From Flavobacteriaceae bacterium (GTDB taxonomy: Bacteria; Bacteroidota; Bacteroidia; Flavobacteriales; Weeksellaceae): a DNA stretch of 46,038 bases. The DNA lies in assembly GCA_012522185.1 (NCBI GenBank), contig JAAYKY010000052.1:1-46038 (forward strand), in the 5' to 3' direction. The position numbers were made by a program, and so were the translations under genes. Below are positions 10,766 through 33,817 of the stretch, one piece after another; the first letter of the stretch is position 1, and each line of letters starts with the position of its first letter. The notes below the pieces were generated by a model, which was not told where the DNA came from, did no database searches, and saw only the letters and a list, made by a program, of their open reading frames with translations.

Positions 10766-10800
10766 CAAAATTACGCCCCTCAGGTTAACTGAATGTTAAG
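10766..10800 (-). promoter_or_regulatory. pstS promoter with Pho-box-like direct repeats
   Basis: On the minus strand TTAACA and TTAACC repeat with an 11-base period (top-strand TGTTAAG 10794-10800 and GGTTAA 10783-10788). They stand nine bases upstream of TAATTTTG (10766-10773), a perfect Bacteroidota -7 match, in the place where a -33 element would be. The same arrangement precedes nptA at 33782-33817. This is how PhoB/PhoP-activated promoters are built; the regulator is inferred. Confidence 0.6.
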
Positions 10801-10870
10801 CGAAAGCAACCAAAACTTTATGAAAACTCAATTTAGAAAAGTATAAAGTTGGAGTTTTGTCTTGTGAAAA

Positions 10871-10907
10871 ATAAAAAAATGCCCAAACAGATTTTGTTCA
10901 GGCATTT
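10871..10907 (-). terminator. Terminator of the porU-porV operon
   Basis: AAATGCC (10877-10883) pairs with GGCATTT (10901-10907), with a further short inner stem. On the minus strand the hairpin is followed by a run of seven Ts, an A and more Ts, so it stops transcription leaving porV. Confidence 0.75.
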
Positions 10908-10929
10908 CTTATAATTGTTATAGTTGGAA

Positions 10930-12102
10930 TTAATAATCCCAAGAATTATTGGTTTCACCTCCGAATTCCCAAGTCAGGGCAAAGCGAAGTGTGTTTTCTA
11001 AAGCGTTGTTGGTGTCTGAAACGGGTAGCAGATAAGAGAAATCAAGCCCGAATGCATTGTATTTCAACCCTGCTCCCAATGTAATGTGCTGACGATCACC
11101 TTTCATAGGGCTTTCGTGGAAATAACCTCCACGTACATAGAGCACTTCGTTGTAGGAATATTCGGCTGAAATTCCCCAAGTGAATTCTTTAAGTTCTTCT
11201 GAAAAACCTCCCGGTGCGTCTCCGAAGGAACTAAACATTCCTTCCACCACCCCTTTGTTTGGAATTCCCAAAGGAACTTGGTTTCCATTTTCGTCGATTT
11301 CATATTGAGGCGTTGGAACCAAAAGTTTATTGGTTTCCAAAGTAAGTGCCACGGTATTGTATTCGTCCAAAATGAAATCGTATCCGGCACCAATTCTTAG
11401 GTTTGTTGGTAAATAAGCTGCGTTGTCCTCGTTGTTGGAATAGTCCAATTTAGGTCCGATATTGCTGATGTTGAAACCGGCTCTTGCACGTCCTTCGAAA
11501 CTATTCCACTGATGTCTTGGTGTTTGGTAATACCCTGAAACGTCCACTGCAAATGTGTTGGCAGGCTGAACGGTTCCGTCTGCAATTCCGTTAAAGAGAT
11601 CCGAACGAATGAAACGTCCTGCTACCGCCATACTATAAGTATCCGAAAGTCTCAATCCATAGGAAAGGTCGATTGAGAATTCGTTGGGTTTTGCGGTTCC
11701 TGTATTTACGATTTGTGTACCTACTAATTCGGTTAATTCAATTTCTCCAATATTGAAATAATTGATACTTGCGGCAAGTGTACTCCTTTCTTCCTGTCCT
11801 AAAAAGGTATAAAAGGAAGCGTTTAAAATGAAGACATCATCTGTGATGCTACTCATATAAGGTGTATAAGAAAGAGCTACTCCTGAATGGCTTTTGCTGA
11901 AAGCATATTTGGCTGGGTTCCAGTATTGTGAAAATGCATCGGGCGACGTAGCGGCACCCATATCACCGAGGGATCCTCCTCTGGCGTCAGGTGTAACTTT
12001 TAAGAATGGTGCACCTGTCAATACAACGTTTGGTTCTTGTTGCGCAGATGCTAATGCTGAGAAAAGCATCATAATTCCTATTGAAATTTTCTTAATTTTC
12101 AT
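10930..12102 (-). CDS. porV: Type IX secretion outer-membrane protein PorV
   Basis: Outer-membrane beta-barrel of the FadL fold that shuttles type IX cargo from the SprA translocon to the PorU sortase. The 390 residues begin with a signal peptide ending ASAQQ. The conserved N-terminal block APFLKVTPDARGGSLGDMG is followed by SQYWNPAKYAF, a PorV hallmark. The C-terminus FALTWEFGGETNNSWDY is barrel-like. It lies 10 bases downstream of porU on the same strand, a standard pairing in gliding Flavobacteriia. Confidence 0.95.
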   Translation of the reverse strand: MKIKKISIGIMMLFSALASAQQEPNVVLTGAPFLKVTPDARGGSLGDMGAATSPDAFSQYWNPAKYAFSKSHSGVALSYTPYMSSITDDVFILNASFYTFLGQEERSTLAASINYFNIGEIELTELVGTQIVNTGTAKPNEFSIDLSYGLRLSDTYSMAVAGRFIRSDLFNGIADGTVQPANTFAVDVSGYYQTPRHQWNSFEGRARAGFNISNIGPKLDYSNNEDNAAYLPTNLRIGAGYDFILDEYNTVALTLETNKLLVPTPQYEIDENGNQVPLGIPNKGVVEGMFSSFGDAPGGFSEELKEFTWGISAEYSYNEVLYVRGGYFHESPMKGDRQHITLGAGLKYNAFGLDFSYLLPVSDTNNALENTLRFALTWEFGGETNNSWDY

Positions 12103-12112
12103 TGGTTGTTTA

Positions 12113-15100
12113 TTATTTTAATATCACTAATTTTTCTATTGCTGTTGCCGACCCCTTACATGAGTCTGGATTAACCCCCCTCGCTGTGACGCGGTAAATA
12201 TACACACCTTTTCCAATTTTATCACCAAAATCATCCAATCCATCCCAAGGAATTGCAAAGCGTCCGGTTCGATAACCTTCTCGCCAAGGCTCTGCCGAAA
12301 CGGTTTGACGAATGGTTTTCACCAATTTACCTGAAATCGTGAAAATTTGCACCATTACCTCCAGTTCTGTATCACAATTGTGTTCGAAATGAAAATAGGT
12401 CTGATTGGTGAAAGGATTGGGCCAGTTCAATAATTTCTCAATATGAATGTGATCCGAACCTTCCTCCATCACTACGAAATCTAACGTTTGTTCGGATGAA
12501 TTATTGTTAATATCCCATGCTTTAAATACAATTTGGTGCGATCCCAATTCCAGATTATTCAGTCGGTACATCACTTGACCTTTCTGATAATCCAATACTT
12601 GAGGATTTGTACAAGGGTTATTGTCGCCCCCTTCGTAATATTCATTTAAGACATAAGTCCCTTCTACATTCTGGTCCATAACCGCCGTAATATCGTGTCC
12701 AATAGCAATTCCACTTGTATTGATTCCCGTATCATCAACCAGACAAGCCAATAGATAAGGATTTCGGTTGGTAATTCCTCCGTCCACAAAGTTCAGGTTG
12801 TTCATATACAATCCGATGGTGGGACCTTCGTTATCGTTCAATCCCTCTGGGTTTTGTCCTCCGATTTTGATTTGTTGACTTGTTACGCCATCCACTACAT
12901 TGTTATGTGCATACACGGTTAGTTTCCCATCTCCGATTTCATAATTAATGTCTTTTGGAATATAGAATTGGAATTTGAACTGACCATTAACAACATTGGT
13001 TCCTCCACGAAACACCGAGTTGATTTGCTCTTGGAAGTTCATCACCCCCAAACCACCATCGTTGTTCAGAGTTGATTTATTGACCGGTTTATCAAACAGG
13101 GTTGCATTTGCTTTTCCATTGAAAGAATTATCGCGCATGCTTCCATTTGCGTCCAAGACTTCTCCTTCGATTTCCACAAAATCCAAAGCGCGTAGCACTC
13201 CATTAAAGGTATTGGCATCCTCCCCATTTATTTTTGTAATTCGGATTTCGCGAGGCGGTCTTGTAATGCTCATCATAGGATCTCCCAAAAGATTTACACT
13301 CAGATTATATCCTGAATTATCTTGAATTTTAGCGGCAGTTAATGCTCTTCCTATGGATTGGTATTTTACATTTTCTACTTCGAGTAGTTCTTTGATTACG
13401 GTTGCATTGAGTTCACCTCCAAAGAAAACCCCCACGGGACGACTTGTAGTCAACATAGCAACTGCTCCACCTTGGGGTGCTTTGTACATATTTACTCCTG
13501 CCGAAGGCAAATAAGGTAAATCCCAGACGGAAAACTCACAAGTAATGGTCATCACGACCGGAAGTCGGGAATAGAGTCCCGAGAAATTTGAGAAGCTGTT
13601 GATTTCTTCATAGGTAATAATTCTTTCTTGCGCCCAACTTCTCAAACCACCATGACCAAAGTAAACAATCAAAGCTGTTCCTAAATTAAAAGCATTGGCA
13701 ATTACTTGGTTCACCTGAGGATACCTTGGTCCGGCCGAAGTACTTTCTTGAGGGAAGGCATCCAGATATCCTTTTCTTAATGTAGCATAGTCAATGTTGT
13801 CTTCTATGAAACTGGCCGAAGTATTCTCCACCTGCTCATGGAAAGGCACCACTCCGGAATCATCGTCCACCACTAATAGAAATCGGGTTTTCCACTCTCC
13901 AAATGAGGTTCCTTGTCCGGCTAATTTATCATAATACGCCAAGGTTTTATCGACCATGAGTTTGGCTTCCGTCAGATTATTTGCCGGCATTCTCCCTATC
14001 GCAATATCCATTTGAAAAGATCGAGACATGATAAATTCGGCCGGATGATGAAGGTTGCTGATGATTTCATCGCTATCATCCAACATCGAATAAAAGTCAT
14101 CGGTCACGAAAGAATCATCCAAATTCGCAGAACGGAAACTGATATAAGAAGGAACGAAATTGGTGTTATTTTCAATTCGATCTTTGTAATCAAAAGAAGC
14201 CCCTCCAAACATCAATGCGTACCGCAAGGGGTTTCCATTGTCACGAAGGTGTTTGAGAAAATCTCGAATGGCATTCGCGTCCGGAAGTCCGGACCCAAAA
14301 TCATTGTAAACTTGATCGGTGGTAACTACAATTACCCTAACATCGTCATTTGTAATTCGGAAGTTGGCAAGTCGCGATGCTTCACCGATGAAGTCCGGAT
14401 GCGTGATGATGGCGTATTCCACATCTGTATAAGCACGCAAATCCTGATTGGCTACCGTCCCTAAATATTCAATTTCGGTAAAAGCAGCAGATTCCGTAAA
14501 AGCGATGAATTCATTTAGAAAATAAGGACTGTTGGATCTGTATTTATAAACACCCCCTGTGTTGGCTACGTTCATCGCATTGGTAATGTCGGATATATTC
14601 CAAACTTTTTGGGCGCCTGCCAGTGAAAATCCATAGACATTTCCATCGTTTAAATTTTCCAATCGACGAAATTTCATCTGACTCCCGTTGAAACTTAAAT
14701 TGGCTCGGTAACGTATTTCCAAATAATCCAGAAACACAAAAGCACTTGGATTGGTCACATCGCTGACATTGATAGAAAAATTAAAAGAATTTCCGCTGGT
14801 ATTGATCGAAACGGGGTTATTTCCATTGTTTCTCATATTGAAATCTCCTGCGCTAAAAGTTTCACTCCCGATGGAGTTCCCATTAACGGACACATTGAAA
14901 TTTACATTGACTGCATTTTTCCCGACCATTTGATAAAAAGCATAGGCCTCTCCGGCGACGTTTGCATTTCCGGTTAGTGTAAAACTCTGGCTTGGCTCCA
15001 TTGTAAAAGATTCTCCCACCCATTGTTTTCCCACTTGATTCATACTGATGGAATCTTTTTCGTAAAATTGATATTCATCGTATTGAGAAAAAACTTGCAC

Positions 15101-15979
15101 AGGCGTACCTTCAACATTTACATCTTGCACTCTCTTTCCGGGCGAGCCCCCAAAGGTTATATAATAATAGGCGTAGTCTGAATATTGATTATAACGATGG
15201 CGAAGACTTTGAAGCGTTGAGTTATCTCGTCGGTTCCAATCATGAGGTCCTTGGGCATAAAACAAAATAAAATCTCCACTGTCGAAACTACCGTCTTCTT
15301 GCCCTTGAAACTGAATGGCATTTTCTTGCAAAGCTCCGTATCGGAAATCCCCTGGGTTCTCATTTAACATTCTCCCACCGTTTCCATAAATCTTCAAAGT
15401 TCTTGGATCGAAATTGGAGGGAATATTATTTTGGTCAAAAAAAGCTTTGTCCAATCGGAAAATCCCTGATTTATTTACTCGGATTTTGTACCAATTCCCT
15501 GATTTTAGAACGCTGGTTGTCGCCGGATCGATTGTCCCATTGGGAGCAAGTCGGCTGGAAGTATCCGGTTCATTTAGGATTTCAAAAGACACTACTTTCT
15601 TCACCTGATTGTTTTCTCGGACAAATGGGATCATGGATACCGATAAGAAATACCCTTCCATCCCACTGCTTACATTGGCCCAATATTCCAGTTCGGTTGG
15701 CAAATCCGCCACATTCAAATCCCCTCTTTCCGAAGGAGGAACTACCTCGTATCGAATGTTTTGTATAGAAACATTTCGCATCCCTTGAACTTGTTCTTGG
15801 TAAGAGAAATGCGGAATATTATTGTGTGCACTAAAACCCTTGTTGGAGAAAATGGGCAGTCGCGCATTATAATCAGGTCCTTTTGAATATTCTTCCACCC
15901 CCTTCCAATCAATCACGACATTTTGGGCGGTTAAGCTTAGTGTAGAAAGAAATAAAAGAAAAAGAAAATATTTTTTCAT
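12113..15979 (-). CDS. porU: Type IX secretion system sortase PorU
   Basis: Cell-surface cysteine protease that cuts the C-terminal signal from type IX cargo and attaches it to the surface. The 1288-residue protein has a signal peptide (1-18), a beta-rich N-terminal part, a gingipain-type C25 peptidase domain with catalytic His776 in YFGHGGLRSW and Cys814 in MTITCEFSVWD, and a long beta-sandwich C-terminus. The last 90 residues (LNWPNPFTNQTYFHFEH, then GKGVYIYRVTARG) look like a type IX C-terminal domain, as known for PorU. Operon with porV; divergent from gldJ. Confidence 0.96.
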   Translation of the reverse strand: MKKYFLFLLFLSTLSLTAQNVVIDWKGVEEYSKGPDYNARLPIFSNKGFSAHNNIPHFSYQEQVQGMRNVSIQNIRYEVVPPSERGDLNVADLPTELEYWANVSSGMEGYFLSVSMIPFVRENNQVKKVVSFEILNEPDTSSRLAPNGTIDPATTSVLKSGNWYKIRVNKSGIFRLDKAFFDQNNIPSNFDPRTLKIYGNGGRMLNENPGDFRYGALQENAIQFQGQEDGSFDSGDFILFYAQGPHDWNRRDNSTLQSLRHRYNQYSDYAYYYITFGGSPGKRVQDVNVEGTPVQVFSQYDEYQFYEKDSISMNQVGKQWVGESFTMEPSQSFTLTGNANVAGEAYAFYQMVGKNAVNVNFNVSVNGNSIGSETFSAGDFNMRNNGNNPVSINTSGNSFNFSINVSDVTNPSAFVFLDYLEIRYRANLSFNGSQMKFRRLENLNDGNVYGFSLAGAQKVWNISDITNAMNVANTGGVYKYRSNSPYFLNEFIAFTESAAFTEIEYLGTVANQDLRAYTDVEYAIITHPDFIGEASRLANFRITNDDVRVIVVTTDQVYNDFGSGLPDANAIRDFLKHLRDNGNPLRYALMFGGASFDYKDRIENNTNFVPSYISFRSANLDDSFVTDDFYSMLDDSDEIISNLHHPAEFIMSRSFQMDIAIGRMPANNLTEAKLMVDKTLAYYDKLAGQGTSFGEWKTRFLLVVDDDSGVVPFHEQVENTSASFIEDNIDYATLRKGYLDAFPQESTSAGPRYPQVNQVIANAFNLGTALIVYFGHGGLRSWAQERIITYEEINSFSNFSGLYSRLPVVMTITCEFSVWDLPYLPSAGVNMYKAPQGGAVAMLTTSRPVGVFFGGELNATVIKELLEVENVKYQSIGRALTAAKIQDNSGYNLSVNLLGDPMMSITRPPREIRITKINGEDANTFNGVLRALDFVEIEGEVLDANGSMRDNSFNGKANATLFDKPVNKSTLNNDGGLGVMNFQEQINSVFRGGTNVVNGQFKFQFYIPKDINYEIGDGKLTVYAHNNVVDGVTSQQIKIGGQNPEGLNDNEGPTIGLYMNNLNFVDGGITNRNPYLLACLVDDTGINTSGIAIGHDITAVMDQNVEGTYVLNEYYEGGDNNPCTNPQVLDYQKGQVMYRLNNLELGSHQIVFKAWDINNNSSEQTLDFVVMEEGSDHIHIEKLLNWPNPFTNQTYFHFEHNCDTELEVMVQIFTISGKLVKTIRQTVSAEPWREGYRTGRFAIPWDGLDDFGDKIGKGVYIYRVTARGVNPDSCKGSATAIEKLVILK

Positions 15980-16000
15980 GATGTCTTAACGATATTTTGA

Positions 16001-16008
16001 CAAATATA
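16001..16008 (-). promoter_or_regulatory. porU promoter, -7 element
   Basis: The top-strand CAAATATA reads TATATTTG on the minus strand, a perfect TAnnTTTG. It lies 21 bases upstream of the porU ATG. I found no good TTG-type -33 element at the normal distance, so this is a half-supported call. Confidence 0.45.
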
Positions 16009-16061
16009 TTCTATCTCACAATAAAAAAAGATTTAGGTCGTTAAAGATAGGCAGAGTAAAG

Positions 16062-16092
16062 TTTGCGAATTCGTGAGAATTTGTTTTCTTTG
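16062..16092 (+). promoter_or_regulatory. gldJ promoter
   Basis: TTTG at 16062-16065 and TTTCTTTG at 16085-16092 (seven of eight bases of TAnnTTTG) are 19 bases apart, the preferred Bacteroidota -33/-7 spacing. The start codon follows 45 bases downstream. This makes the in-frame ATG at 16063, inside the promoter, an unlikely start. Confidence 0.55.
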
Positions 16093-16137
16093 CAAATCGT
16101 TTTTCGTGAAAAAAGTAGAAATAACACATATTTAAAT

Positions 16138-17865
16138 ATGAACAAGGGTAGAATTTTAGCGATTCTTTTAGTAGTAATTTCGGTTGCTGTAACCAGCTGT
16201 ACCGGCCAAGGAGGCGGTAGAAAAAAAGGCGGAGGAACTAAAAAGTTCACGAGTACCACTGGCTGGAAACCAAATGACCAAAGAGGTTGGTTTTTTGCTG
16301 GGAAGAAAAAACCAAATGTCAAGGCTTGGCCTGGAATGGTATTCATCGAAGGAGGCTCATTTACAATGGGACTTGTGAAAGATGATGTAATGCGCGATTG
16401 GAACAACACTCCAAAACGTATGCAGGTACGTTCGTTTTTCATTGGAGAAACCGAAATCACCAACTATCAGTACCGTGAATATTTAACTTGGTTGAAAGTT
16501 GTATTTCCACCAGAAGAAGAACAATACAAACATATTTACGAAGGATCTCTTCCAGATCCGGAAGTATTTAACAATAAATTGTCAAGAAATGATTTTGACA
16601 ATGAAACTTATCTTTTCTCAACCGAATTCCAATATTATCCAGTCGTAGGTGTTACCTGGCTACAAGCAAGTAATTATTGTGACTGGTTAACCGACAGAGC
16701 CAACGAAAAAGCTTTGATGGACAAAGGGATTTTGAGCAAGGATTATTATTCCAATGAAGAATATAACTACGGTTCTAAATATTTTGATGCTGAATCTTAC
16801 AAAAACAGCGACAGTAATGTTTCTGAAGCTATTGACACCACAAGATTGGCAAGACAAAACAATATAAGAACTACCAATCAACGCATCCATAAAGCAAATA
16901 GATCGACTACAGCATTAGATGTTGCGCCTTTCCGTTTACCAACAGAAGCAGAATGGGAATACGCAGCTTTGGCTTTGCCTGCTAACAGAGAATACAATGA
17001 GTACAAAGGTAAACCTGTTGCACAAAATGAATTGAGAGGAGAAAAAGGCCGCGCAAGAGGTCAATATATGGCTAACTTCAAAGTAGGTCGTGGTGACTAT
17101 TCAGGTATTGGTGGATATGGCAACGATGGTTCAGCCATTACAAGTGATGTGAAAAAATATCAGTCAAACGAATTCGGAGTTTACGGAATGGATGGTAACG
17201 TAGCCGAATGGACAGCTGATGTTTACCGTCCGATTATCGACGATGAAGCAAGTGATTTTAACTATTTCCGTGGAAATGTTTATGAAACGGTTATTCGAAA
17301 CGATCAAGGAAATTTTGAAAAATACGAAGACGATATCATCTATGATACTTTGAACAATGGAAAACTCGCTTACCGTGCACTTCCTGGGAAATACAGAAAA
17401 GAAGTTGAAGAAGATAATATCAACTACCGTGACGGAGACCGTATGTCTTCATTAAACCCACGTGTAGAAGAAGATTATTACGATACAGGATTTGCCAACA
17501 CCATGTTGGACTCACTGGGTAACATCATCGAAGTCCCTTCTGAAGATTCACTTGGTGGTTCATTTGCAAGTGCTTCTTCATCAAGCACTACAAATGAGAT
17601 GTACAACGCACCTCAGCGTAGATTCTATGTGGACGAAAAAGGAAGAGTCATCTTAGAGAAAGACGATGCAGAAAGAACCAGCCAGATCAGCGACGAAGTA
17701 CGTGTCGTAAAAGGAGGCTCATGGAAAGACCCTATTTACTGGTTGGATCCGGGACAAAGAAGATTCCTTCATCAAGCTGAAGCTAAAAGCTGGATTGGTT
17801 TCCGCGTAGCTCAGGATTACCAAGGATCACACGAATCAAAAAGATCAAAATCAGGAACAAGATAA
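16138..17865 (+). CDS. gldJ: Gliding motility / type IX secretion lipoprotein GldJ
   Basis: Outer-membrane-associated lipoprotein needed for gliding and for stability of GldK and the type IX motor in Flavobacteriia. The start at 16138 gives 575 residues and a clean lipoprotein signal with Cys21 (VAVTSCTGQGG); an upstream in-frame ATG at 16063 adds 25 polar residues before it and overlaps the promoter. The body is a formylglycine-generating-enzyme (SUMF1-like) fold: VFIEGGSFTMGLVKDD, PVVGVTWLQASNYCDWL, FRLPTEAEWEYAALA, VYGMDGNVAEWTADVYRP and, at the end, VVKGGSWKDP with SWIGFRVAQD. A long acidic insert lies at about 400-500. It is divergent from porU and followed by murF. Confidence 0.95.
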   Translation: MNKGRILAILLVVISVAVTSCTGQGGGRKKGGGTKKFTSTTGWKPNDQRGWFFAGKKKPNVKAWPGMVFIEGGSFTMGLVKDDVMRDWNNTPKRMQVRSFFIGETEITNYQYREYLTWLKVVFPPEEEQYKHIYEGSLPDPEVFNNKLSRNDFDNETYLFSTEFQYYPVVGVTWLQASNYCDWLTDRANEKALMDKGILSKDYYSNEEYNYGSKYFDAESYKNSDSNVSEAIDTTRLARQNNIRTTNQRIHKANRSTTALDVAPFRLPTEAEWEYAALALPANREYNEYKGKPVAQNELRGEKGRARGQYMANFKVGRGDYSGIGGYGNDGSAITSDVKKYQSNEFGVYGMDGNVAEWTADVYRPIIDDEASDFNYFRGNVYETVIRNDQGNFEKYEDDIIYDTLNNGKLAYRALPGKYRKEVEEDNINYRDGDRMSSLNPRVEEDYYDTGFANTMLDSLGNIIEVPSEDSLGGSFASASSSSTTNEMYNAPQRRFYVDEKGRVILEKDDAERTSQISDEVRVVKGGSWKDPIYWLDPGQRRFLHQAEAKSWIGFRVAQDYQGSHESKRSKSGTR

Positions 17866-17890
17866 TTTCAATTATATTTGTAAAAACCTA

Positions 17891-17924
17891 TCCCAATCCG
17901 AATTTTCTGATTGGGATTTTTTTT
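17891..17924 (+). terminator. Terminator after gldJ
   Basis: TCCCAATC (17891-17898) pairs with GATTGGGA (17909-17916) and is followed by eight Ts. It separates gldJ from murF, which begins 11 bases later. Confidence 0.85.
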
Positions 17925-17935
17925 ACATTTACCCT

Positions 17936-19231
17936 ATGGATATTCAGACACTCTATTCATTGTATTTACGTTCCCAGAGCGTAAGTACTGACACAAGAAA
18001 CATCGGGATGAAGTCCCTTTTTTTCGCACTGAAGGGCGAAAATTTTAACGGGAATGAATTCGCCAAGGAAGCCATCAAATCTGGGGCGCTCTTTGCCATT
18101 GTGGATCAAAAAGAATTCGAAGACAAAGAAGGCGATATATATTATGTAGAAGACACCCTAAATGCTTTGCAAAAGCTGGCGCAATACCATCGACAACAAT
18201 TGAAAATCCCCATCATCGCACTGACCGGAAGCAACGGTAAAACCACGACAAAAGAGCTCATAATCCAAGTCCTTTCCAAACGATACAATGTAGCGGCCAC
18301 CAAAGGAAATCTAAACAACCACATCGGAGTGCCGCTAACCCTACTTTCAATCAATTCGACGCATGATATCGCGGTGGTTGAAATGGGCGCCAATCATTTA
18401 TTGGAGATTGAATTTCTGAGTCAAATCACTCAGCCCGATTTTGGGTATATCACAAATTTCGGGAAAGCTCATTTGGAAGGATTCGGAGGAATTGAAGGGG
18501 TGATAAAAGGCAAGTCTGAACTCTATAATTACCTTCGGGAACATGCCAAAACCGTGTTTGTAAATTGCGACGATGAAAAGCAAGTAGAACTCACCGAAGA
18601 AATCCAAAAGAAAACTTTTGGAACGAGTACGGATGCAGACTATACTTTCGAATATTCCGAATCGCTCAACGGTCGTTGTCCCACCATCAACTATGAAAAT
18701 ACAGTTATCCAAAGTCAATTGGTAGGCGATTATAATTTGAGCAATGTAGCAGCTGCGATTGCCATCGGACTAACGTTTGAAGTTCCAATTGAAGACATCA
18801 AAGAAGCGATAGAAACCTATAAACCCGACAATAATCGTTCGCAAATTCTTTACAAAAATGAACAAGCATTTGTTTTGGACGCTTACAATGCCAATCCAAG
18901 CAGTATGGAAGCTGCCCTTTTGAACTTCAGCAAAATCGATGAGAACAAAGCGGTTTTATTGGGCGATATGTTTGAATTGGGCGAAACCTCACAAGAAGAA
19001 CATCAAAAAATTGCTGAATTAGCTGTAAGCTTAGGCTTTTCGACCTTGGTGTTCATTGGAGAAAAATTCCATTCGATTTCCCTTCCCGAATCAGAATCAC
19101 TACGCAAATTTACCAACCGCGAAGAAGCTTTAAAATATCTGAAGGAAAATCCCGTTAAAGAAAAACAAATCCTCATCAAAGGATCGCGTGGCATGGCATT
19201 GGAAAAATTACTCGATGTTTTCTTGGATTAA
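17936..19231 (+). CDS. murF: UDP-MurNAc-tripeptide--D-Ala-D-Ala ligase MurF
   Basis: Cytoplasmic Mur ligase that adds D-Ala-D-Ala to the UDP-MurNAc-tripeptide, the last soluble step of peptidoglycan precursor synthesis. The 431 residues show VSTDTRNIGMKSLFFALKGE (N-terminal domain), ATP-binding ALTGSNGKTTTKELI near residue 100, NLNNHIGVPLTLL, VEMGANHLLEIEFLSQI, and LDAYNANPSSMEAAL with GDMFELGE in the C-terminal part; the last two separate MurF from MurC/D/E. Length is normal. It starts right behind the gldJ terminator, so its promoter must overlap the hairpin or transcription must leak through. Confidence 0.95.
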   Translation: MDIQTLYSLYLRSQSVSTDTRNIGMKSLFFALKGENFNGNEFAKEAIKSGALFAIVDQKEFEDKEGDIYYVEDTLNALQKLAQYHRQQLKIPIIALTGSNGKTTTKELIIQVLSKRYNVAATKGNLNNHIGVPLTLLSINSTHDIAVVEMGANHLLEIEFLSQITQPDFGYITNFGKAHLEGFGGIEGVIKGKSELYNYLREHAKTVFVNCDDEKQVELTEEIQKKTFGTSTDADYTFEYSESLNGRCPTINYENTVIQSQLVGDYNLSNVAAAIAIGLTFEVPIEDIKEAIETYKPDNNRSQILYKNEQAFVLDAYNANPSSMEAALLNFSKIDENKAVLLGDMFELGETSQEEHQKIAELAVSLGFSTLVFIGEKFHSISLPESESLRKFTNREEALKYLKENPVKEKQILIKGSRGMALEKLLDVFLD

Positions 19232-19270
19232 ATAAATTAGTAATTTGGATTTACTAAACAAAAACAACTA

Positions 19271-19801: not shown

Positions 19802-19802
19802 A

Positions 19803-25278: not shown

Positions 25279-25280
25279 CA

Positions 25281-27173
25281 ATGAAAACCCAATTCTCTTT
25301 ATTATTACTTTTTTTATCTTTTACTCTTTTAGCTCAACTCAACCCAAGAACCAAATGGGGCGATGTATCCCAAGCCGAAATCGACTACAAAGAGGTTTCT
25401 TTTGAGCAAAATGCACCGGCGGTTATACTCTATGAAAAAGGAAAAACCGAGGTTACGAGATCTTTTCAAACCTATGCTTACCGACGCATAAAGATCTTAA
25501 ATGAAAACGGAATCGAAGCTGCCAATCAAGAGATTATGTATTATGCTGACAAAGGATTGGAAAGCATTGGTTCATTAAAAGCCCAAACCATCAATTTCGA
25601 AAATGGAAAAAAAATCGTCCTTCCGGTCGATAAAAAAGAGATTTTTGATGTGAAGAAAAATGATTATTACAACACATTAAAATTCACATTCCCCGATGTA
25701 AAAGTCGGCTCCATCATCGAATTTGAATATACTTTGACCAATCAGAATTTATATCTAATCGACGCTTGGAGGTTTCAACATGATTTACCAACGCTGTACA
25801 GTTCCTACGAAATCGAAAATCGAAGCACATTGGATTATACTTCTTTGGCCATCGGTGATAAAATAGTTCAGTATTCACAAAACAATCCTAAAACCCAGAA
25901 ATGGACTTTGACCAATCTGCCCGGTCACAACTCGATGAATTTTCTCTACAACAAAGAAGATATGGCCGAACGGATTGTTTTTCAATTGAGAGGTTATAGA
26001 AAAAGAGCTAATATAAGTTACGAAGCCGATCGTTATGAAAATGTATTGGCCAATTGGAAGGATTTAAATCAAGAAATGAACAATCATTTCAAAGCCTATC
26101 AAAACGAATCTTTTACCCGAGAAATTGCCAATAGTATCCCCAATGGAAGTTCCCAAAAAGAAACACTTGAAAATATTTATGATTATTTCAGAAAGAATTA
26201 CCGATGGAATAATTTTTACAGCATTCAGGCAAGACAATCCAACCGTGATCTAGCAAAATCAAAGGTGGGAAACTCTACAGATTTGAATTTAATGTTGAAT
26301 TCAATTCTCAATAACAAAGGATTTACCGTTGATTTGGTGTTGATTAGCACAAGAGATCATGGGAAAATCATCGCTTCTTATCCTTATTTGAATCAATTTA
26401 ATGTCGTTCTTAACTTGGTTCATTTGGAGGATGGCACTCAATTTTTGATAGATGCTTCCGATATGCGGTATGATTTGGGCTATGCACCTTTGCGTGATTA
26501 TAACCACTATGCATTGATTATAGATCCGCTAACGGAGCGCATGGTTTCTTTCCATCCTATGTTATCTGAATTTCAATCCACACAAAATTATGTATTTCGG
26601 GAGGGAAAATTCATTCAAACAAGAACCGATAAAGTAAATGGTTATTTCAAAGAATTCGAAACGAAATCGCCCTCAGGGCAATCGGTAAAGTCTCCTGTAG
26701 AAAATTCGCTTGATCTCCTTTTAAACGAAACCCGATACGATCAGAGAGATTCCGAAACCGATAATTTCCAGCTTCGACGCATCGTTTCTGAAAGTCCGGA
26801 AATAAATTCACCTCGTTTTATCGGAATCGAAAATCCTTTGAAAAACATTCTCAATTCTTTTCAGATGAGAGAAGCCAATCGAAACCGCGCCTTGGAATTT
26901 AATTTCCCGTTTCATTACAAAACAATTGTAATTCTGGACATTCCCGAAGGATACAATGTGGAAATCCCAGAAAATTTCAATACGCATCATCACATGATTA
27001 ACAAAGAGTTTCAGTATTTACAAAATGCGGAAATAAAGGACGGAAAACTCCAAGTTCAGTATGATTTTTTCCTTGGAAAAGCCGTTTATGAAAAGAATTA
27101 TCTGCAGATCAAATCATTCTTTGACAAATCGATTTCAAGTGCAAATCAAAATATTTTATTGAGAAAAAACTAA
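25281..27173 (+). CDS. DUF3857 / transglutaminase-like exported protein
   Basis: Exported protein, 630 residues from the ATG at 25281 (MKTQFSLLLLFLSFTLLAQL signal peptide); a GTG two codons upstream is in frame but less likely. The N-terminal part is DUF3857 (YRRIKILNENGIEAANQEI, then FPDVKVGSIIEFEYTLT), and the middle is a transglutaminase-like domain (TLENIYDYFRKNYRWNNFY and VLISTRDHGKI). The place of the catalytic Cys reads GNSTDLN, so a Ser stands there and transglutaminase activity is doubtful, which I believe is common in this Bacteroidota subfamily. Function unknown. It ends in a 4-base tail-to-tail overlap with the next gene. Confidence 0.8.
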   Translation: MKTQFSLLLLFLSFTLLAQLNPRTKWGDVSQAEIDYKEVSFEQNAPAVILYEKGKTEVTRSFQTYAYRRIKILNENGIEAANQEIMYYADKGLESIGSLKAQTINFENGKKIVLPVDKKEIFDVKKNDYYNTLKFTFPDVKVGSIIEFEYTLTNQNLYLIDAWRFQHDLPTLYSSYEIENRSTLDYTSLAIGDKIVQYSQNNPKTQKWTLTNLPGHNSMNFLYNKEDMAERIVFQLRGYRKRANISYEADRYENVLANWKDLNQEMNNHFKAYQNESFTREIANSIPNGSSQKETLENIYDYFRKNYRWNNFYSIQARQSNRDLAKSKVGNSTDLNLMLNSILNNKGFTVDLVLISTRDHGKIIASYPYLNQFNVVLNLVHLEDGTQFLIDASDMRYDLGYAPLRDYNHYALIIDPLTERMVSFHPMLSEFQSTQNYVFREGKFIQTRTDKVNGYFKEFETKSPSGQSVKSPVENSLDLLLNETRYDQRDSETDNFQLRRIVSESPEINSPRFIGIENPLKNILNSFQMREANRNRALEFNFPFHYKTIVILDIPEGYNVEIPENFNTHHHMINKEFQYLQNAEIKDGKLQVQYDFFLGKAVYEKNYLQIKSFFDKSISSANQNILLRKN

Positions 27174-28150
27174 ATATCAGCAACCATCAGATTGCAACCG
27201 CGAACGTCGGAATGGTCAAATCTTCCCAGAATTTCAAATGAGCCGTCGGGATAAGTTTTCCCCAAATCATCGGTCGCGATAAAACTGCAAGAATTTAGAT
27301 TGGCTAAATCGATCAGATTGATTCCGCCCGTTTTTCCTTCGCCAAAAAAACTCAAAGGATCCTCGGTATCGCGAATCAGGACTTTCATCCAATTCGGTGT
27401 TTCAAACCGAGAATTTCCTTTGGAATAAGCCTGTGAAAGCAATTCGGTCATTCCGTATTCCGAGTGGATTTCTTTCACACCAAATCCTTTTTTCAGGATT
27501 GTATGCAATTCCTCGCGGGTTATTTCTTTTTTGCGGCCTTTCATGCCACCGGTTTCCATGAGGATTGTATTTTTCAATTCCAATTGATAATTCTCCACGA
27601 AATCCAGCAACGCAAAAGAAACTCCGATCAAAATCGCCTTTTGCCCTTGCTTGTCGTTTTGAATTAAATCCCGGTACAATTCTTCGTGATTGTAAAGATA
27701 AAATCCCCCACGACCCGATTTCTCAATCCAGAATTCGACCATATCGATCAGCGAAGAACCTTCCCTTTCCAAATAAGAAGGAAGCAATGCAAAAATGATG
27801 TAATCCTCTATTTCGCCATAAAAATGACGGAAACTTCTCTCCAAACTTTCTCGGTAAAAACTCAAGTCCGAAACCAAATGACGACTTGTTTGAATTCCGG
27901 TCGTTCCCGAACTTGTAAAAACCTTTTCAGTTGTTTGATTTCCTGAAATAATGGAATGCGATTTAAAAAAACGAATGGGCAAAAATGGAATTTCATCTAC
28001 ACTATGGATTTCGGCAGGATTTAGATTTAAAAATTGAATGAATTTTTTATAAACCTGATTTTCTTCTGCTTGAAACCGAAATACTTTCAAAGCCACTTCA
28101 TTAAAATCCTTCTGATTTTGAATTGAGAAAATTTCTTCTTTGGAAATCAT
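27170..28150 (-). CDS. LuxE-like acyl-protein synthetase / acyl-activating protein
   Basis: Adenylate-forming enzyme related to LuxE (acyl-protein synthetase), 326 residues. FTSSGTTGIQTSRH near residue 80 is the AMP-binding loop, and VKEIHSEYGMTELLSQAYS near 230 is the A5-like motif that closes the adenylate site. The late GGINLIDLANLNSCSFIATDDLG and GRFDHSDVRGCNLMV resemble the C-terminal part of the family. In Bacteroidota such stand-alone genes are not linked to luminescence; a role in activating a fatty or aromatic acid is plausible but unproven. The 3' end overlaps the convergent gene by four bases, with no terminator between. Confidence 0.8.
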   Translation of the reverse strand: MISKEEIFSIQNQKDFNEVALKVFRFQAEENQVYKKFIQFLNLNPAEIHSVDEIPFLPIRFFKSHSIISGNQTTEKVFTSSGTTGIQTSRHLVSDLSFYRESLERSFRHFYGEIEDYIIFALLPSYLEREGSSLIDMVEFWIEKSGRGGFYLYNHEELYRDLIQNDKQGQKAILIGVSFALLDFVENYQLELKNTILMETGGMKGRKKEITREELHTILKKGFGVKEIHSEYGMTELLSQAYSKGNSRFETPNWMKVLIRDTEDPLSFFGEGKTGGINLIDLANLNSCSFIATDDLGKTYPDGSFEILGRFDHSDVRGCNLMVADI

Positions 28151-28171
28151 CTGCCAAAGGTAAGGCTATTC

Positions 28172-30826
28172 TTAAAAAAGATTAAACCGGCACCCCAAAA
28201 CAATGTGCAAAGGAATCAATCTTTGGCGGAAATAAGTTTCGCTGATATTGTCCACAGTATATCTTTCTATGTGCTTTTGGTTCAGCAAATTATTCAGATT
28301 CAAATAAAAATGAATATTTGATTGAGCAGGTCGATAATTCAATTTGATATCCCAAAAACTAATGAGATTCTGATTCGTATTTCCATAATTTAAAATTTCA
28401 AAGCGGGATTCAATCCGGAATTTCGGACTGAAGGTGTAGTGAAGGTTCACATCAAAAAATTCGTTGCGATAATTGGCTTGAAATTGATTAGATTTAAATC
28501 GAATCCAATCCAGTTTATAATTCGCACGGAAATTTAATTTCCCAATCCATCCGGTTTTCCAAGAAATTTTCAGTCCGGTCGTTTCTTGCCGATTCTCTCG
28601 GAGATTCCCCTCGTTGATCCGATTACTAAATTCAGAAGCACCAAAAGAGCCTGTCAAACTCAGTCGGGATTTCAAAAACTGAAAAAATCGATAAATTTCA
28701 AGTTCTGAATGAAAGTAATAATTGTCCTTCATCAGAACATTTACTGTGTAATTAAATTCGGGTTGAATGATGGATTCCGTAGAAAAATATTCATCATTAT
28801 AATTGAACATCGAAAAGATTTTAAAGCCTTTGTTGACATTCCCTTTTTCATAAGAAAGGTTGAGATTATGCGAAGACAGTGCGCTGAATTTCATATCATT
28901 GGCTCTAAAATCCCGGTCGCCCAAATAAATCAAATTTCGGTACAAATGATTTTCAGAAAGGGGCGAAATTCTCCTTTGATAGCCCAAAGAAAGATTCCCA
29001 AATCGCATCCTTTCATAACTGAGATTCACGCCCGGACTCATGTAGAAAATTGAAGTTTCATCGCTGATTCCAAGCTGATTCCATTGGGTTTCAAAATAAT
29101 CCAAATCCAGTTGAAAGTCCAATTTCCAACGCCTTTTGAAAGGTTGGGTATATTTTATTTTGGAATAAAGATTCCAAATATTGAATTCTAAATCGTTATG
29201 AAATCCCTCTTGACTTGCCCAAACTTCTTGGTCGAAACTCTGCAATTGCGATTGAAAATGGTTCCGATTCCATTCCGAACCCAGCTGAATTTCTAAGTTT
29301 TGATCTTTTTTATAGTTTTTGAGATACGAAGTTTTAATGCCTAAAAAATTGGATTTATTTTCCAAGTTTTCTTGCACCATTTGAATGTTTTCATCCTGAA
29401 AATAATTCGCAAAAAAATCAGAAGACTCTGTAAATCCAAATTTTTGTCCGCTGTGAACAAATCGCCCAACAAACGCCAAAGCAGTAATGGAATCCAGTTT
29501 TTGAGTGAAATTTAGCTGATGATCCAATTTCACCAAATTTCCTTCGCCATTTTGTGGTGCATTCAATCCATTGAAAATAAATTGATTTTCATTTTGTTCT
29601 TTTTGGACATAAATTTTGTTTGTAAAATTGAGAGCTGAATTTTTAAATTGCTTATCCAACTCAAGTTTGGAAATCGAATTGTAGGAAACCAAATTCCAAT
29701 GTTTGGACTCTTCGTTAGTGAAATTAGTTTCGTCAAAATCAAAAACCTGAATGTTTTCTACGTAGCGATTCCTTTCGGTTTTGTTAAAAATACTAAGGAA
29801 ATGAACTTTAAAATCTTGGGGGAAATTTTGAATGAAATTAATCGCACCCAAATAATCATCGTTGAAATTATCACGATTGTCTTCCACCAAAAGTCCTATC
29901 GGATTGAGCCGTATGAGTGAAGTATTTTGCTGCAAAAGCTCGCCGACATTTTCCACATTTCGGCTATAAGTAGGTCGCAAAAGATATTCTACGCCTTTCA
30001 TTTCTTCCAAACCCAAATTATTGTAATTGAAAAACAGGTAAAACTTTCGGTCTTGTTTAAAGTTCATCAAATTGAGTTTAATTTGGTGCATTTGTTCTAC
30101 GTAGCTTGTAGAAGCCAGCTCAGCCGTACCGCTCCATTTTCCTTTTTCCTTTTCTTTCAGTTTTAAATTGATTACCTGAACGCCGCTTTTTTGAATTCCA
30201 CCCAAAATTTGGTTTTTGGAATAATCCTGAATTATTTGAACCGATTCCACAGGTTGCGACGGCATATTTTGCGTCAAAATCTGATAACCTTCAGAAAACA
30301 AATCATCGCCTTCGACCAAAACAAAGGAAACATCGTCTCCATTGACTTTGATTCTACCAGTATTATCGACTTCTACACCGGGAATTTCTTTTAGCAAATC
30401 CTCTACGCTCAATTCAAAATTTTTGGCATAATCGGTTGCCAAATATTCGACAGTATCACGCTTGCCGGAAGGATTTCCCACAATGACCAATTGTTCTAAA
30501 TCCACCGAATTTGACGTCATAAAAACAGTTCCCAGATCATATTCCGTTTGAGAAGGGTCGATGGAAATATCGGCATCCACATCGAAATAGCCCATTTTTC
30601 GAATACGGATTTGATAATCGCCGGGCTGGTTTAGTTTCAGCAGAAACAATCCTTCTTGATTGGAATTTCCAAAACTGGTGAGTTTTTCATTTTGAAAAAC
30701 CGTAACGATGGCGTGCGGAATCGGGGTATAATCATCGGTAAGCACTTCGCCTTTCAATGAGAAGTTTTGGCTAAACAAGTGCTGAGCGAAAAAGAAAAAC
30801 AAGAAAAAGCTTAGGTATTTTCTCAA
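28172..30826 (-). CDS. TonB-dependent-receptor-like outer-membrane protein
   Basis: Outer-membrane barrel of 884 residues. After a signal peptide (1-19, ending LFSQ) comes a carboxypeptidase-regulatory-like domain (SLKGEVLTDDYTPIPHAIV to about residue 105), then a plug-like region with SVEDLLKEIPGVEVDNTGRI and VLVEGDDLFSEGYQILTQNM, and a long strand-rich barrel ending LHIVLGCRFNLF with a terminal Phe. This matches the outer-membrane beta-barrel family next to GLPGLI genes rather than classical siderophore receptors; I saw no TonB box. It lies 24 bases downstream of the GLPGLI gene on the same strand. Cargo unknown. Confidence 0.85.
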   Translation of the reverse strand: MRKYLSFFLFFFFAQHLFSQNFSLKGEVLTDDYTPIPHAIVTVFQNEKLTSFGNSNQEGLFLLKLNQPGDYQIRIRKMGYFDVDADISIDPSQTEYDLGTVFMTSNSVDLEQLVIVGNPSGKRDTVEYLATDYAKNFELSVEDLLKEIPGVEVDNTGRIKVNGDDVSFVLVEGDDLFSEGYQILTQNMPSQPVESVQIIQDYSKNQILGGIQKSGVQVINLKLKEKEKGKWSGTAELASTSYVEQMHQIKLNLMNFKQDRKFYLFFNYNNLGLEEMKGVEYLLRPTYSRNVENVGELLQQNTSLIRLNPIGLLVEDNRDNFNDDYLGAINFIQNFPQDFKVHFLSIFNKTERNRYVENIQVFDFDETNFTNEESKHWNLVSYNSISKLELDKQFKNSALNFTNKIYVQKEQNENQFIFNGLNAPQNGEGNLVKLDHQLNFTQKLDSITALAFVGRFVHSGQKFGFTESSDFFANYFQDENIQMVQENLENKSNFLGIKTSYLKNYKKDQNLEIQLGSEWNRNHFQSQLQSFDQEVWASQEGFHNDLEFNIWNLYSKIKYTQPFKRRWKLDFQLDLDYFETQWNQLGISDETSIFYMSPGVNLSYERMRFGNLSLGYQRRISPLSENHLYRNLIYLGDRDFRANDMKFSALSSHNLNLSYEKGNVNKGFKIFSMFNYNDEYFSTESIIQPEFNYTVNVLMKDNYYFHSELEIYRFFQFLKSRLSLTGSFGASEFSNRINEGNLRENRQETTGLKISWKTGWIGKLNFRANYKLDWIRFKSNQFQANYRNEFFDVNLHYTFSPKFRIESRFEILNYGNTNQNLISFWDIKLNYRPAQSNIHFYLNLNNLLNQKHIERYTVDNISETYFRQRLIPLHIVLGCRFNLF

Positions 30827-30850
30827 TTTATGCTGATTAGTTTTAGCATT

Positions 30851-31624
30851 TTATTCCCACTCAAATTCCACTTCCAATTGATCTTCCCGAATGTTTTCTT
30901 TGGGGATAGGAACGCCCCCTTCGGGCATATTTGCCAAGGCGGCACTATACGAGTTTTCCAAAAACCTTGTTTCTCCTACAATCACTTCCCGAAACGGCAT
31001 TACCGTATATTTTTCCTCATCGAAAACTTGGGCTAAATTTTCCGGAAATTCTTCTTCCAGGTTCAGATGAATTCCCACCGCTTTTATGTGAAAATTTTTA
31101 TCGCGTGCTTCCAACACCAATCCGGGTAAACCTTTGAGTTTCCAGGGACCTTCGCTGAAGGGTAGATCTGGCGCAAACCAAACTTCCCAACTTCTTCCTC
31201 TGAATTGGAGACTGGCTTTTTGAACTTTAAAGCCCAATATTTCTTTGAATTCCTCTTGAATTACCCAATTATGAGACAGAATTTCTTCATGCGAAAGCAC
31301 CAACGAGATTTTATTTTTTTCTGAAAAATATTTCTTCTGAAATGTAAAACCTTGGGTATAATCAAATTTTAGAGGACTTGCTGTGATTTTTTGGTTTTTG
31401 AGAATTCCCTTCAAATCCGCAAATGCCCAATCCTTGTCCCAAGTGGTAGTTTCTCCGTTGAAAAAAGTAAAATAATAGGCAGATTCCTCATCAAAAACCA
31501 AGTGTTCCTGCACGCCAAACATGTACAAAGCCGGATCATCTGTTTCGTAAACGATATAGTTTAAGTTCTGTCCGTTTAAAAAACTAAAAAACAAAGCAAG
31601 GAATAGTATTTTGAATTTCCTCAT
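30851..31624 (-). CDS. GLPGLI family protein
   Basis: Exported protein of 257 residues with a signal peptide (to about 18, FLNGQ). The name-giving motif is intact, GPWKLKGLPGLVLEARD, at about 176-192, preceded by RGRSWEVWFAPDLPFSEGP. The family is confined mainly to Bacteroidota, has no known biochemical role and is usually encoded with an outer-membrane barrel protein, as here. The start codon lies 18 bases downstream of a perfect 28-bp palindrome, which would fold in the leader of this mRNA if transcription begins further upstream. Confidence 0.9.
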   Translation of the reverse strand: MRKFKILFLALFFSFLNGQNLNYIVYETDDPALYMFGVQEHLVFDEESAYYFTFFNGETTTWDKDWAFADLKGILKNQKITASPLKFDYTQGFTFQKKYFSEKNKISLVLSHEEILSHNWVIQEEFKEILGFKVQKASLQFRGRSWEVWFAPDLPFSEGPWKLKGLPGLVLEARDKNFHIKAVGIHLNLEEEFPENLAQVFDEEKYTVMPFREVIVGETRFLENSYSAALANMPEGGVPIPKENIREDQLEVEFEWE

Positions 31625-31642
31625 GGGGTATAGTAATTTAGA

Positions 31643-31670
31643 TAGTAGCGACAGGTACCTGTCGCTACTA
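31643..31670. repeat. Perfect 28-bp palindrome
   Basis: TAGTAGCGACAGGT is followed at once by its exact reverse complement ACCTGTCGCTACTA, with no loop base. It lies between a broken small gene and the GLPGLI gene. There is no T run on either side, so it is not a standard terminator. A binding site for a dimeric protein, a REP-like dispersed element or a recombination footprint are all possible. Confidence 0.85.
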
Positions 31671-31689
31671 AGATTAACAAAATTTAATT

Positions 31690-31947
31690 TTAAGGATCTA
31701 AACTCGTGTTAACATTGGATTTAACAACATTTATTATTAGACCACCGTTTTGCTCTCCACAATCCCCATTGTACCAATAGCTTGAGGAAGTACTATGGGA
31801 ATACTCACCATTAACATAGTGCCTTACAATTGTTGTAATCGTACAACCAATTAGATCTTATTCTACTGCAGGAGTTTCATCCCAAGTGTTAGCGAAAGAC
31901 CAACTATCTAACATGGCAAAGCCACATAGTAAAATAATTTTTCTCAT
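31690..31947 (-). pseudogene. Small secreted-peptide gene broken by an in-frame stop
   Basis: Reading the minus strand from ATG 31945-31947 gives MRKIILLCGFAMLDSWSFA, a signal-peptide-like start, and continues in one frame for 85 codons to TAA at 31690. Codon 30 is a TAA (31858-31860). Beyond it the frame stays open for 55 codons with two Cys (DLIGC and NGDCG), which suggests one recent nonsense change in an otherwise intact gene. The family is not recognised; short exported peptides near GLPGLI genes are common in Flavobacteriia. Not long enough on either side to show as a normal ORF. A sequencing error is the main alternative. Confidence 0.5.
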
Positions 31948-32126
31948 GATTTAATTTTTTAGTGTTATATAAAAGAAAAGAATTGATTAAGTTGGCGCCA
32001 TTATAAAAATTCAATTCATTTCAAACATAAACAAAAAATAAATAAAATCTAAATCCATAAGAGGTTAATTCACTATAAATGTACTAAATAGGACAAAGAT
32101 TCTGAGAATAATTGAGCCAAGACCAC

Positions 32127-33764
32127 TTATTTCCCCAAAGCTTTATTGGCCTGATACAAATGGTCGCCGATGAGTTCGTAGTTTTGGATCAATTCGGTAT
32201 AATAAAGTGCGCTTCGAACCGAAAGCTTTTCGGATTCAATAGCTTTGAGCAATGCATCTTCGGCTTTGTCAAACTTTTTATCGATTGATTTTTCGATTTG
32301 TTTGGCTTCCAATAAATTGACTTTCCCATTGGTTTCATTGAGGTTTTGAACCAAATTCGTCGTTGCCAAAGAAAGTGATTCTTGGAGTTCCTGAAGAAGT
32401 TCGCGCAATCTTGGGGTAATAAAACTACTGCTTTTCCTTCTTTCTTTGTGGATCGAAGCAATTTTCAATGCCAAATCGCCGATGTTTTCTAAATGATGAC
32501 AGATTTCAATGAGTTTATGGATATTGAGCGCCACTTCGCCTGTCATTTCATAATTATAAATTGAATTCAGATAATTTAAAATACTTTTTTCTAGATCATC
32601 ACCTTCTTTTTCCAAGGTATAAATTCGATTTCTTAATTCTTTGAGTTTTTCGTCATCACTTTCCAGGATCATTCGCCCTAAATTATTGATAATCTGTCGG
32701 GTGATTCCTGCGAACTTTACGATTTCACGATTGGCTTCGTACACATACATTTTGGCCGTTGGCCCAAAAGGTCTCCCGATTAATTTGAGCGAAGTTTTTT
32801 GAGATCCACTCAGGTATTTTCGTTCTGCCCAGTCTGCAATTGGATTGAGAAAAGGAAGAATCAAAAGCGAAGAAATCACATTGAAAAATGTATGAAATGA
32901 TACCAAAATGATTTCGTCATCTGCGGAAATCCATTTTTGAAAGACTTCGATAATCAGCGGAACGAAAAAGAAAAACAAAATCGCTCCAAAAAAATTCAAA
33001 AAGAAATGAAACCAAGCGGTAATTTTCGAAGCTTTATTTCCAACGGTAGAAGCAATCAGCGCTGCGGAAGTCGTACCGATATTGGCTCCCAAAACCATCA
33101 TGGCTCCGTGTTCGAGGTTCAAACCTTTCGATACCAAAACCGCTGCCAGCAATATGAAAGCACTTGAGGAATGGAAAAGAAAGGTCACGACAATCCCAAT
33201 GAGAACAAAGATAATCGAAGAGAAAAACGAAGAGCTTGTACCGTACCTTTCAATGTATTCTTGGAAAAATTCTTGATTAGAGAAATCAGGAAAAAATTGA
33301 TTTAGAAAATAAAATCCGATGAAAATCAAGGCGAGTCCTATAAAAAAATTGGCCCATTCCTTTAATTTTTGATTTCGGAAAAAATAGAATGTAACCGCAA
33401 TTGCAATAATCGGCAATGCGAAGGATTCAATGTGCCAAACCAAGCCCAAGCCGATGATCAGCCAGAGTTTAATTGTCGTTCCGACATTTGCTCCCACGAT
33501 AATGGAAAAAGCCCTTCGCAAATTGAGAAGTCCGGCGTTTACGAAACTCAGTGTCAATACACTCACAATGGAGGAAGACTGAAGCGCAATCGTGAATAAT
33601 TTCCCGGCAAAGGCGCCCGAATAAGGATTGCTCGTCATCCGGTTTAGGTAAGTTTGCAATTGACCTCCGGCAGAACGCTGTACGCCTTCACTCATCACCT
33701 TCATCCCATAGAGGAAAAGCGATACGGAGCCCAGAACGTTCAATACCAGCAGAAAGATTTGCAT
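32127..33764 (-). CDS. nptA: Na/Pi cotransporter family protein with PhoU-like C-terminus
   Basis: Sodium-dependent phosphate transporter of the NptA/PNaS class, 545 residues. The N-terminal 310 residues are membrane-spanning with the two inverted repeats marked by ALQSSSIVSVLTLSFVNAG and LFHSSSAFILLAAVLVSKG, each followed by a GAN(V/I)GTT motif. The C-terminal 200 residues are helical and PhoU-like (LEKEGDDLEKSILNYLNSI, KLIEICHHLENIGDLALKIA, YYTELIQNYELIGDHLYQA). The promoter shares Pho-box-like repeats with pstS, which supports phosphate regulation. Substrate is by family and promoter; some relatives act on other anions. Confidence 0.88.
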   Translation of the reverse strand: MQIFLLVLNVLGSVSLFLYGMKVMSEGVQRSAGGQLQTYLNRMTSNPYSGAFAGKLFTIALQSSSIVSVLTLSFVNAGLLNLRRAFSIIVGANVGTTIKLWLIIGLGLVWHIESFALPIIAIAVTFYFFRNQKLKEWANFFIGLALIFIGFYFLNQFFPDFSNQEFFQEYIERYGTSSSFFSSIIFVLIGIVVTFLFHSSSAFILLAAVLVSKGLNLEHGAMMVLGANIGTTSAALIASTVGNKASKITAWFHFFLNFFGAILFFFFVPLIIEVFQKWISADDEIILVSFHTFFNVISSLLILPFLNPIADWAERKYLSGSQKTSLKLIGRPFGPTAKMYVYEANREIVKFAGITRQIINNLGRMILESDDEKLKELRNRIYTLEKEGDDLEKSILNYLNSIYNYEMTGEVALNIHKLIEICHHLENIGDLALKIASIHKERRKSSSFITPRLRELLQELQESLSLATTNLVQNLNETNGKVNLLEAKQIEKSIDKKFDKAEDALLKAIESEKLSVRSALYYTELIQNYELIGDHLYQANKALGK

Positions 33765-33781
33765 AATTCGGTTTAAGACTG

Positions 33782-33817
33782 CAAAATTACGCTGTTCTAT
33801 GTAAATTGATTGTTAAG
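33782..33817 (-). promoter_or_regulatory. nptA promoter with Pho-box-like direct repeats
   Basis: On the minus strand TTAACA (within TGTTAAG, 33811-33817) and TTTACA (TGTAAA, 33800-33805) repeat with an 11-base period, ten bases upstream of TAATTTTG (33782-33789). The core GCGTAATTTTGCAG is identical to the one before pstS. The start codon lies 17 bases past the -7 element. Confidence 0.6.

Follow-up and report, generated by a model that had tools for sequence, protein, structure and literature searches.

Within a 46,038-nucleotide stretch of contig JAAYKY010000052.1 of a Flavobacteriaceae bacterium (the window, by which we mean the whole stretch that was analyzed), two phosphate transporter genes on the minus strand are preceded by closely similar promoter regions that contain putative Pho boxes. 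The first gene, pstS (9849–10760), encodes a phosphate-binding protein (PF12849; TIGR02136 above cut-off), and the second, nptA (32127–33764), encodes a sodium/phosphate cotransporter with C-terminal PhoU domains (PF02690 and PF01895; NF037997 above cut-off). These family models support the statement in a first-pass annotation of the window that the two sites precede different phosphate transporters. On the minus strand, the sequence upstream of pstS reads TTAACATTCAGTTAACC and that upstream of nptA reads TTAACAATCAATTTACA. The predicted Pho box of pstS, TTAACA-TTCAG-TTAACC (10783–10799, predicted positions -38 to -22), lies 9 bases upstream of TAATTTTG (10766–10773), and the predicted Pho box of nptA, TTAACA-ATCAA-TTTACA (33800–33816), lies 10 bases upstream of the same TAATTTTG (33782–33789), with start sites predicted at 10761 and 33777, respectively. 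At both sites the hexamers start 11 bases apart and form a direct repeat with an 11-base step. Inspection of the sequence confirmed what the annotation had described there, namely TTAACA-like hexamers at this spacing followed by a perfect TAnnTTTG.

The annotation had also placed an identical core 9 or 10 bases from the hexamers. A 14-mer, GCGTAATTTTGCAG, is indeed the same at both sites, and the distances hold if the TA of TAnnTTTG is taken as the end point; counted only as far as the first base of the 14-mer, they shrink to 6 and 7 bases. When six promoters of the genus were compared, just TAATTTTGC was retained from the 14-mer, so its identity at the two sites largely reflects a strong -7 box. 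The 14-mer was rejected as a Pho-specific element, as its conserved part consists of the -7 box plus one flanking base. TAnnTTTG is the housekeeping -7 box and stands outside the Pho box proper. Both Pho boxes adjoin this element and occupy the place of the -33 element. Since TAnnTTTG has been placed at -12 to -5 in Bacteroidota promoters (PMC9723704), the pstS transcript is predicted to start 1 base ahead of the ATG, and a leaderless mRNA is thus predicted. The -7 box lies 5 bases from the ATG in this genome and in a relative from the same genus (G002); the pstS locus L004 shows this layout. Upstream of pstS lies porV, a type IX secretion gene. A terminator-like hairpin on the minus strand between porV and the pstS promoter (10874–10910) suggests that transcription of pst begins independently; the consensus scan that located it was weak, with three terminator-like hairpins found in the region against 3.8 expected.

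Downstream of pstS on the same strand lie the permease genes pstC (8971–9849; TIGR02138 above cut-off) and pstA (8108–8971; general permease model PF00528 plus operon position) and the ATPase gene pstB (7333–8130; general ABC model PF00005 plus operon position). They are followed by a DUF47 (PhoU_div) gene (6534–7178; PF01865) and, after it, by the phosphate transporter gene pit (5448–6512; PF01384), both also on the minus strand. The absence of a hexamer pair before DUF47-pit, as originally noted, was borne out: the best candidate in the 167 bases upstream of DUF47 had three mismatches, and no perfect TAnnTTTG was found there. From 5448 to 10760 and from 32127 to 33764, the window therefore carries pstSCAB without phoU, a DUF47-pit pair, and an NptA with PhoU domains. 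A search of the whole genome for a stand-alone PhoU-domain gene (PF01895, E ≤ 0.001) returned none, the matches being in NptA only, which makes the PhoU domains of NptA and the DUF47 protein candidates for a PhoU-like role. Another member of the genus, G003, has PhoU genes. The PstS protein is up to 54% like proteins from Saprospiraceae, Halanaerobiales and Deltaproteobacteria and at most 43% like those of other genera of its own family, and the pst operon is possibly of horizontal origin.

Both boxes are conserved within the genus of this Moheibacter-like genome. Full-length nptA is present in four genomes (G000, which is the genome studied here, and G001, G002 and G004), and TTAACA-N5-TTTACA-N10-TAATTTTG is found upstream in all four. 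The same type of pstS occurs in G000 and G002, with PstS proteins that share 79% identity (a named Moheibacter record likewise gives 79%), and in both genomes 9 bases separate the box from the -7 box that follows; in G002 the box reads GTAACA-N5-TTAACC. The pstS of G005 is more distant (34%) and divergent, with GTAAC-type repeats upstream at step 11. A PhoB match at E ≤ 1e-60 was obtained in four of the six genus members, exactly those with the nptA box. One of the two without such a match, G003, is 76% complete.

To follow up the genome-wide scan suggested in the annotation, an exact composite of repeat and -7 box was written from the two sites themselves. It matched twice in the 2.55-Mb genome, at the pstS and nptA sites; the pattern read backwards had no match in the whole genome, and the composite did not turn up in any of 60 dinucleotide-shuffled versions of the window. 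Eleven repeats with up to two mismatches are present in the window, and only those at pstS and nptA have a perfect TAnnTTTG 5 to 50 bases downstream. At one mismatch or fewer, the repeat occurs at 39 places in the genome, 30 of which were fetched and examined. A perfect -7 box lay 9–10 bases away at three of the 30: pstS, nptA and a locus designated L070. The latter was rejected as a Pho site because the repeat is missing at its orthologues in G001 and G004. L070 precedes an open reading frame that spans some 1867 codons, the first 487 residues of which match no NCBIfam model. Across 40 genomes, this one included, the exact composite had 11 matches compared with two for the reversed pattern. 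The scan thus pointed to phosphate transporters at both matches in the genome itself and at only 5 of the 11 matches among the 40 genomes, these five preceding pstS or nptA and all lying inside the genus. Three of the remaining matches, in which the -7 box is 8 bases away, precede a methyltransferase/flippase-like locus in three genera (L060, L061 and L062), one precedes a TonB-receptor-like gene located after a nadC-like gene, one precedes a gene without assignment, and one falls within the gene for the PhoB orthologue in G026. What the non-phosphate genes downstream of composites encode was read from their translations. For the methyltransferase/flippase-like locus, which belongs to other genera of the family, a link to phosphate is not obvious.

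Because the motif was first seen in the window, scans across the phylum test its recurrence, not its discovery. Scoring 150 bases upstream of pstS at step 11 with up to two mismatches, we found the repeat at 23 of 33 named Bacteroidota loci (shuffle mean 1.6) and at 8 of 13 loci from relatives (shuffle mean 0.8). Other steps gave 0–7 of the 33 and 0–3 of the 13, the reverse strand gave 3 and 2, and PstS-like paralogues had no step-11 repeat upstream (0/16). The named set comprises Saprospiraceae, Sphingobacterium, Myroides, Paenimyroides and others, with several near-identical Sphingobacterium records, and the relatives include the site studied here and that of the Moheibacter neighbor G002. 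Left out were L143 (the same locus as L004), loci from outside the Bacteroidota, and the paralogue L024, for which little upstream sequence is available. In newly drawn genomes from the order, scored over 200 bases without a shuffle control, the repeat was present at 15 of 16 pstS loci and at just 7 of 27 nptA loci, so the nptA box, as predicted from these upstream regions, is lineage-dependent. The new set skipped loci already seen (4 of 20 pstS rows and 3 of 30 fetched nptA loci), and its nptA counts refer to the matches fetched. A distant PstS type (45%) was also encountered in L198, a record titled as a Klebsiella pneumoniae metagenome-assembled genome, a label that looks doubtful.

The distance between the repeat and the -7 box appears to be phased. 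The exploratory set comprised 55 loci. At 16 of them a perfect TAnnTTTG lay no more than 45 bases from a repeat, and at every one of these 16 the gap was 9, 20, 31 or 42 bases (10 in the four nptA promoters of the genus); two of these loci, L007 and L013, have repeats with three mismatches. When -7 boxes with one mismatch were allowed, there were 31 pairs; 24 of these had gaps of 9 or 10 modulo 11, and the other seven did not. The rule was fixed before the newly drawn loci were scored. Five of six scorable pstS loci and four of five scorable nptA loci were in phase, and each miss was by 1 base. Pooling the new loci gives p = 8e-6 if they are assumed to be independent, which they are not, as a single family supplied 10 of the 11; among the repeat-bearing new pstS loci, 9 of 15 were not scorable under the rule. 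Considered post hoc, 15 of 23 pstS pairs within 75 bases were at exactly 9 modulo 11, and none was more than 2 bases off. A gap of 20 bases (9 + 11), here to a -7 box with one mismatch, is also found at G000:C39:3613-3629 (loci L068, L275 and L279), where a perfect TTAACA repeat stands before a gene that follows a nadC-like gene and encodes a BtuB-like TonB receptor. This repeat is retained in G001, G002 and G004, and the receptor gene is a probable further Pho target as judged by its promoter.

A candidate regulator is encoded elsewhere in the genome. This protein, the genome's best match to the PhoB model, has receiver and winged-helix domains, and its gene lies just before a histidine kinase gene. 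The candidate phoB-phoR pair is divergent from a TonB receptor gene that is followed by a lipoprotein-like gene, for which no Pfam or NCBIfam match was found. The arrangement resembles the phoBR cluster of Flavobacterium johnsoniae, in which the receptor and lipoprotein are strongly induced upon phosphate depletion (PMC8115612). PhoB matches at E ≤ 1e-60 were obtained in 31 of the 40 genomes, and in three of them (G034, G038 and G031) phoB is located within 2 kb of pstS. Upstream of phoB, the step-11 repeat was detected at 23 of 30 loci when reading away from the gene (other steps, 1–10) and at 12 of 30 when reading towards it (other steps, 0–3); phoB starts were taken from the matches, and those of L129 and L130 are unsure. 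In the upstream regions of phoB at L114, L116, L134, L138 and L139, as well as in the receptor promoter L275, neighboring pairs are offset by about 19–20 or 30–31 bases rather than 22, which suggests a second register of boxes there.

In Escherichia coli, the Pho box lies at one fixed distance from the core promoter, whereas distances of 9+11k bases were found across the genomes considered here. E. coli PhoB and related regulators recognize a box made of two 11-base direct-repeat units, to which they bind head to tail (PMC4415409). The sites described here are likewise 11-base repeats at the core promoter before pstS, with more units in some relatives' promoters, but the half-site is TTAACA instead of CTGTCAT and the core promoter is that of Bacteroidota, with TAnnTTTG as its -7 box. 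Closer to hand, DNA affinity purification sequencing (DAP-seq) of PhoP from Riemerella anatipestifer, which belongs to the same family (Weeksellaceae), returned TTTAACA as the most conserved nucleotides, with gel-shift checks (PMC9603813). The first half-sites at pstS and nptA both read CTTAACA (6/7 matches to this core) and the second read GTTAACC and ATTTACA (5/7 each), a likeness drawn from the motif and not from orthology of the regulators. The text of that paper contains no occurrence of pstS. In Staphylococcus aureus, expression of pst and nptA depends on the activity of PhoPR, and PhoU, PitR and the PhoU domain of NptA serve as accessory regulators (PMC13170248). The same three transporter types are found together in the window, and the two governed by PhoPR in S. 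aureus are the ones with boxes here. S. aureus differs in having PhoU, of which no stand-alone copy was found in the present genome; by analogy, the DUF47 protein may be equated with PitR.

Several lines of evidence support the original inference of a Pho box: the genome scan, conservation in the genus, recurrence before pstS with strand and step specificity, the repeats that neighbor phoB in other genomes, and the TTTAACA motif of R. anatipestifer PhoP. The sites before pstS and nptA are very probably Pho boxes of a Bacteroidota type that are activated by PhoB. This is the best explanation of their sequence, conservation and spacing and of the presence and neighborhood of the PhoB and PhoR candidates, from which we infer binding, activation and a phosphate response. 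A dimer of PhoB, an OmpR-family protein, would bind the pair of TTAACA-like half-sites head to tail, one 11-base step apart. The box, at about -38 to -22, would thereby replace the -33 element and stay on one face of the helix with respect to the TAnnTTTG -7 box. When phosphate becomes scarce, phosphorylated PhoB would recruit sigma-A RNA polymerase and turn on pstSCAB and nptA. DUF47-pit, without a box of its own, is expected to rely on a different promoter.

A number of results weigh against this interpretation. The 39 genomic occurrences of the repeat alone are not above the 59 counted for the reversed control, and the repeat by itself was rejected as a genome-wide Pho-box detector. With 6 of its 11 matches elsewhere than before pstS or nptA, the composite motif is, beyond the genus, not confined to phosphate genes. 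The repeat is absent from 15 of the 46 pstS loci in the combined set of named loci and relatives and from 20 of the 27 new nptA loci. Repeats precede pstS in G005, a genome that has no PhoB match at 1e-60, and other steps reach 10 of 30 loci upstream of phoB when reading away from it. In the species studied here, the interval between phoB and the receptor gene contains repeats with three mismatches only. The PhoB candidate itself scores below the curated cut-offs (212.9 versus 296.2 for TIGR02154 and 205.2 versus 270 for NF053854), and four further proteins of this genome match the PhoB model over its full length. Finally, deletion of phoPR in R. anatipestifer raises pstS 8-fold (PMC5399024), the opposite of what activation would predict if that pstS is an orthologue.

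This rise of pstS would be accommodated if some other OmpR-family regulator with an ArcA-like site bound the repeats and phosphate control were absent or indirect. Such a regulator could be sought among the five full-length PhoB-model matches encoded. The PhoP motif of R. anatipestifer, derived from 583 peaks, is indeed ArcA-like, and it is discussed by its authors in connection with virulence and redox genes (PMC9603813); the composite at the methyltransferase/flippase-like locus in three genera also fits. We nevertheless consider this unlikely given the enrichment of the repeat at pstS and upstream of phoB, its absence upstream of all 16 PstS-like paralogues, and the location of phoB within 2 kb of pstS in three genomes of other families. 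Less likely still is that PhoB binds the sites as a repressor or dual regulator. The boxes directly precede the -7 box and occupy the position of the -33 element, and in E. coli a box that takes the place of the -35-type element is in an activator position. Moreover, PhoB of Bacteroides fragilis binds the pst promoter and is required for expression of pstC in low phosphate (PMC3547664). What speaks for repression is the same 8-fold rise of pstS and the finding that 34 of the 50 direct PhoP targets with changed expression go up in the R. anatipestifer phoP deletion (PMC9603813). That two AT-rich sigma-A promoters merely resemble each other by chance is hardly credible: although the repeat by itself turns up often in the genome and most of the shared 14-mer is -7 box, a chance resemblance does not account for conservation in the genus, recurrence at pstS across the phylum, or the lack of any composite in the window shuffles.

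Beyond activation of these two promoters by PhoB, we tentatively propose, at somewhat less than even confidence, that Bacteroidota have a Pho grammar of their own, in which tandem TTAACA units in 11-base steps are held in a 9+11k phase to the TAnnTTTG -7 box, with PhoB replacing the -33 element at a distance of one or several helical turns. In the genus, feedback would pass through the PhoU domains of NptA and DUF47, with no separate PhoU. A rule that combines half-site, step and distance could make Pho regulons readable from the genomes of Bacteroidota from soil, gut and wastewater, and with the phase rule, activation at promoters of the TAnnTTTG type could be tested directly. For Bacteroidota, Pho control has already been documented by omics and knock-out work and by a single DAP-seq study. 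In the open-access literature, covered mostly as titles and the beginnings of abstracts, no definition of a Pho box at pstS was found for the phylum. Putative Pho boxes have been predicted earlier in the plcP clusters of marine bacteria, with flavobacteria among those studied (PMC4796936); these are likewise computational predictions, at a different gene. Apart from the phosphate genes, the window contains a type I CRISPR-Cas gene set (34850–44681), inside which lies an unrelated-looking ATPase gene (41645–42808), identified by reading only.

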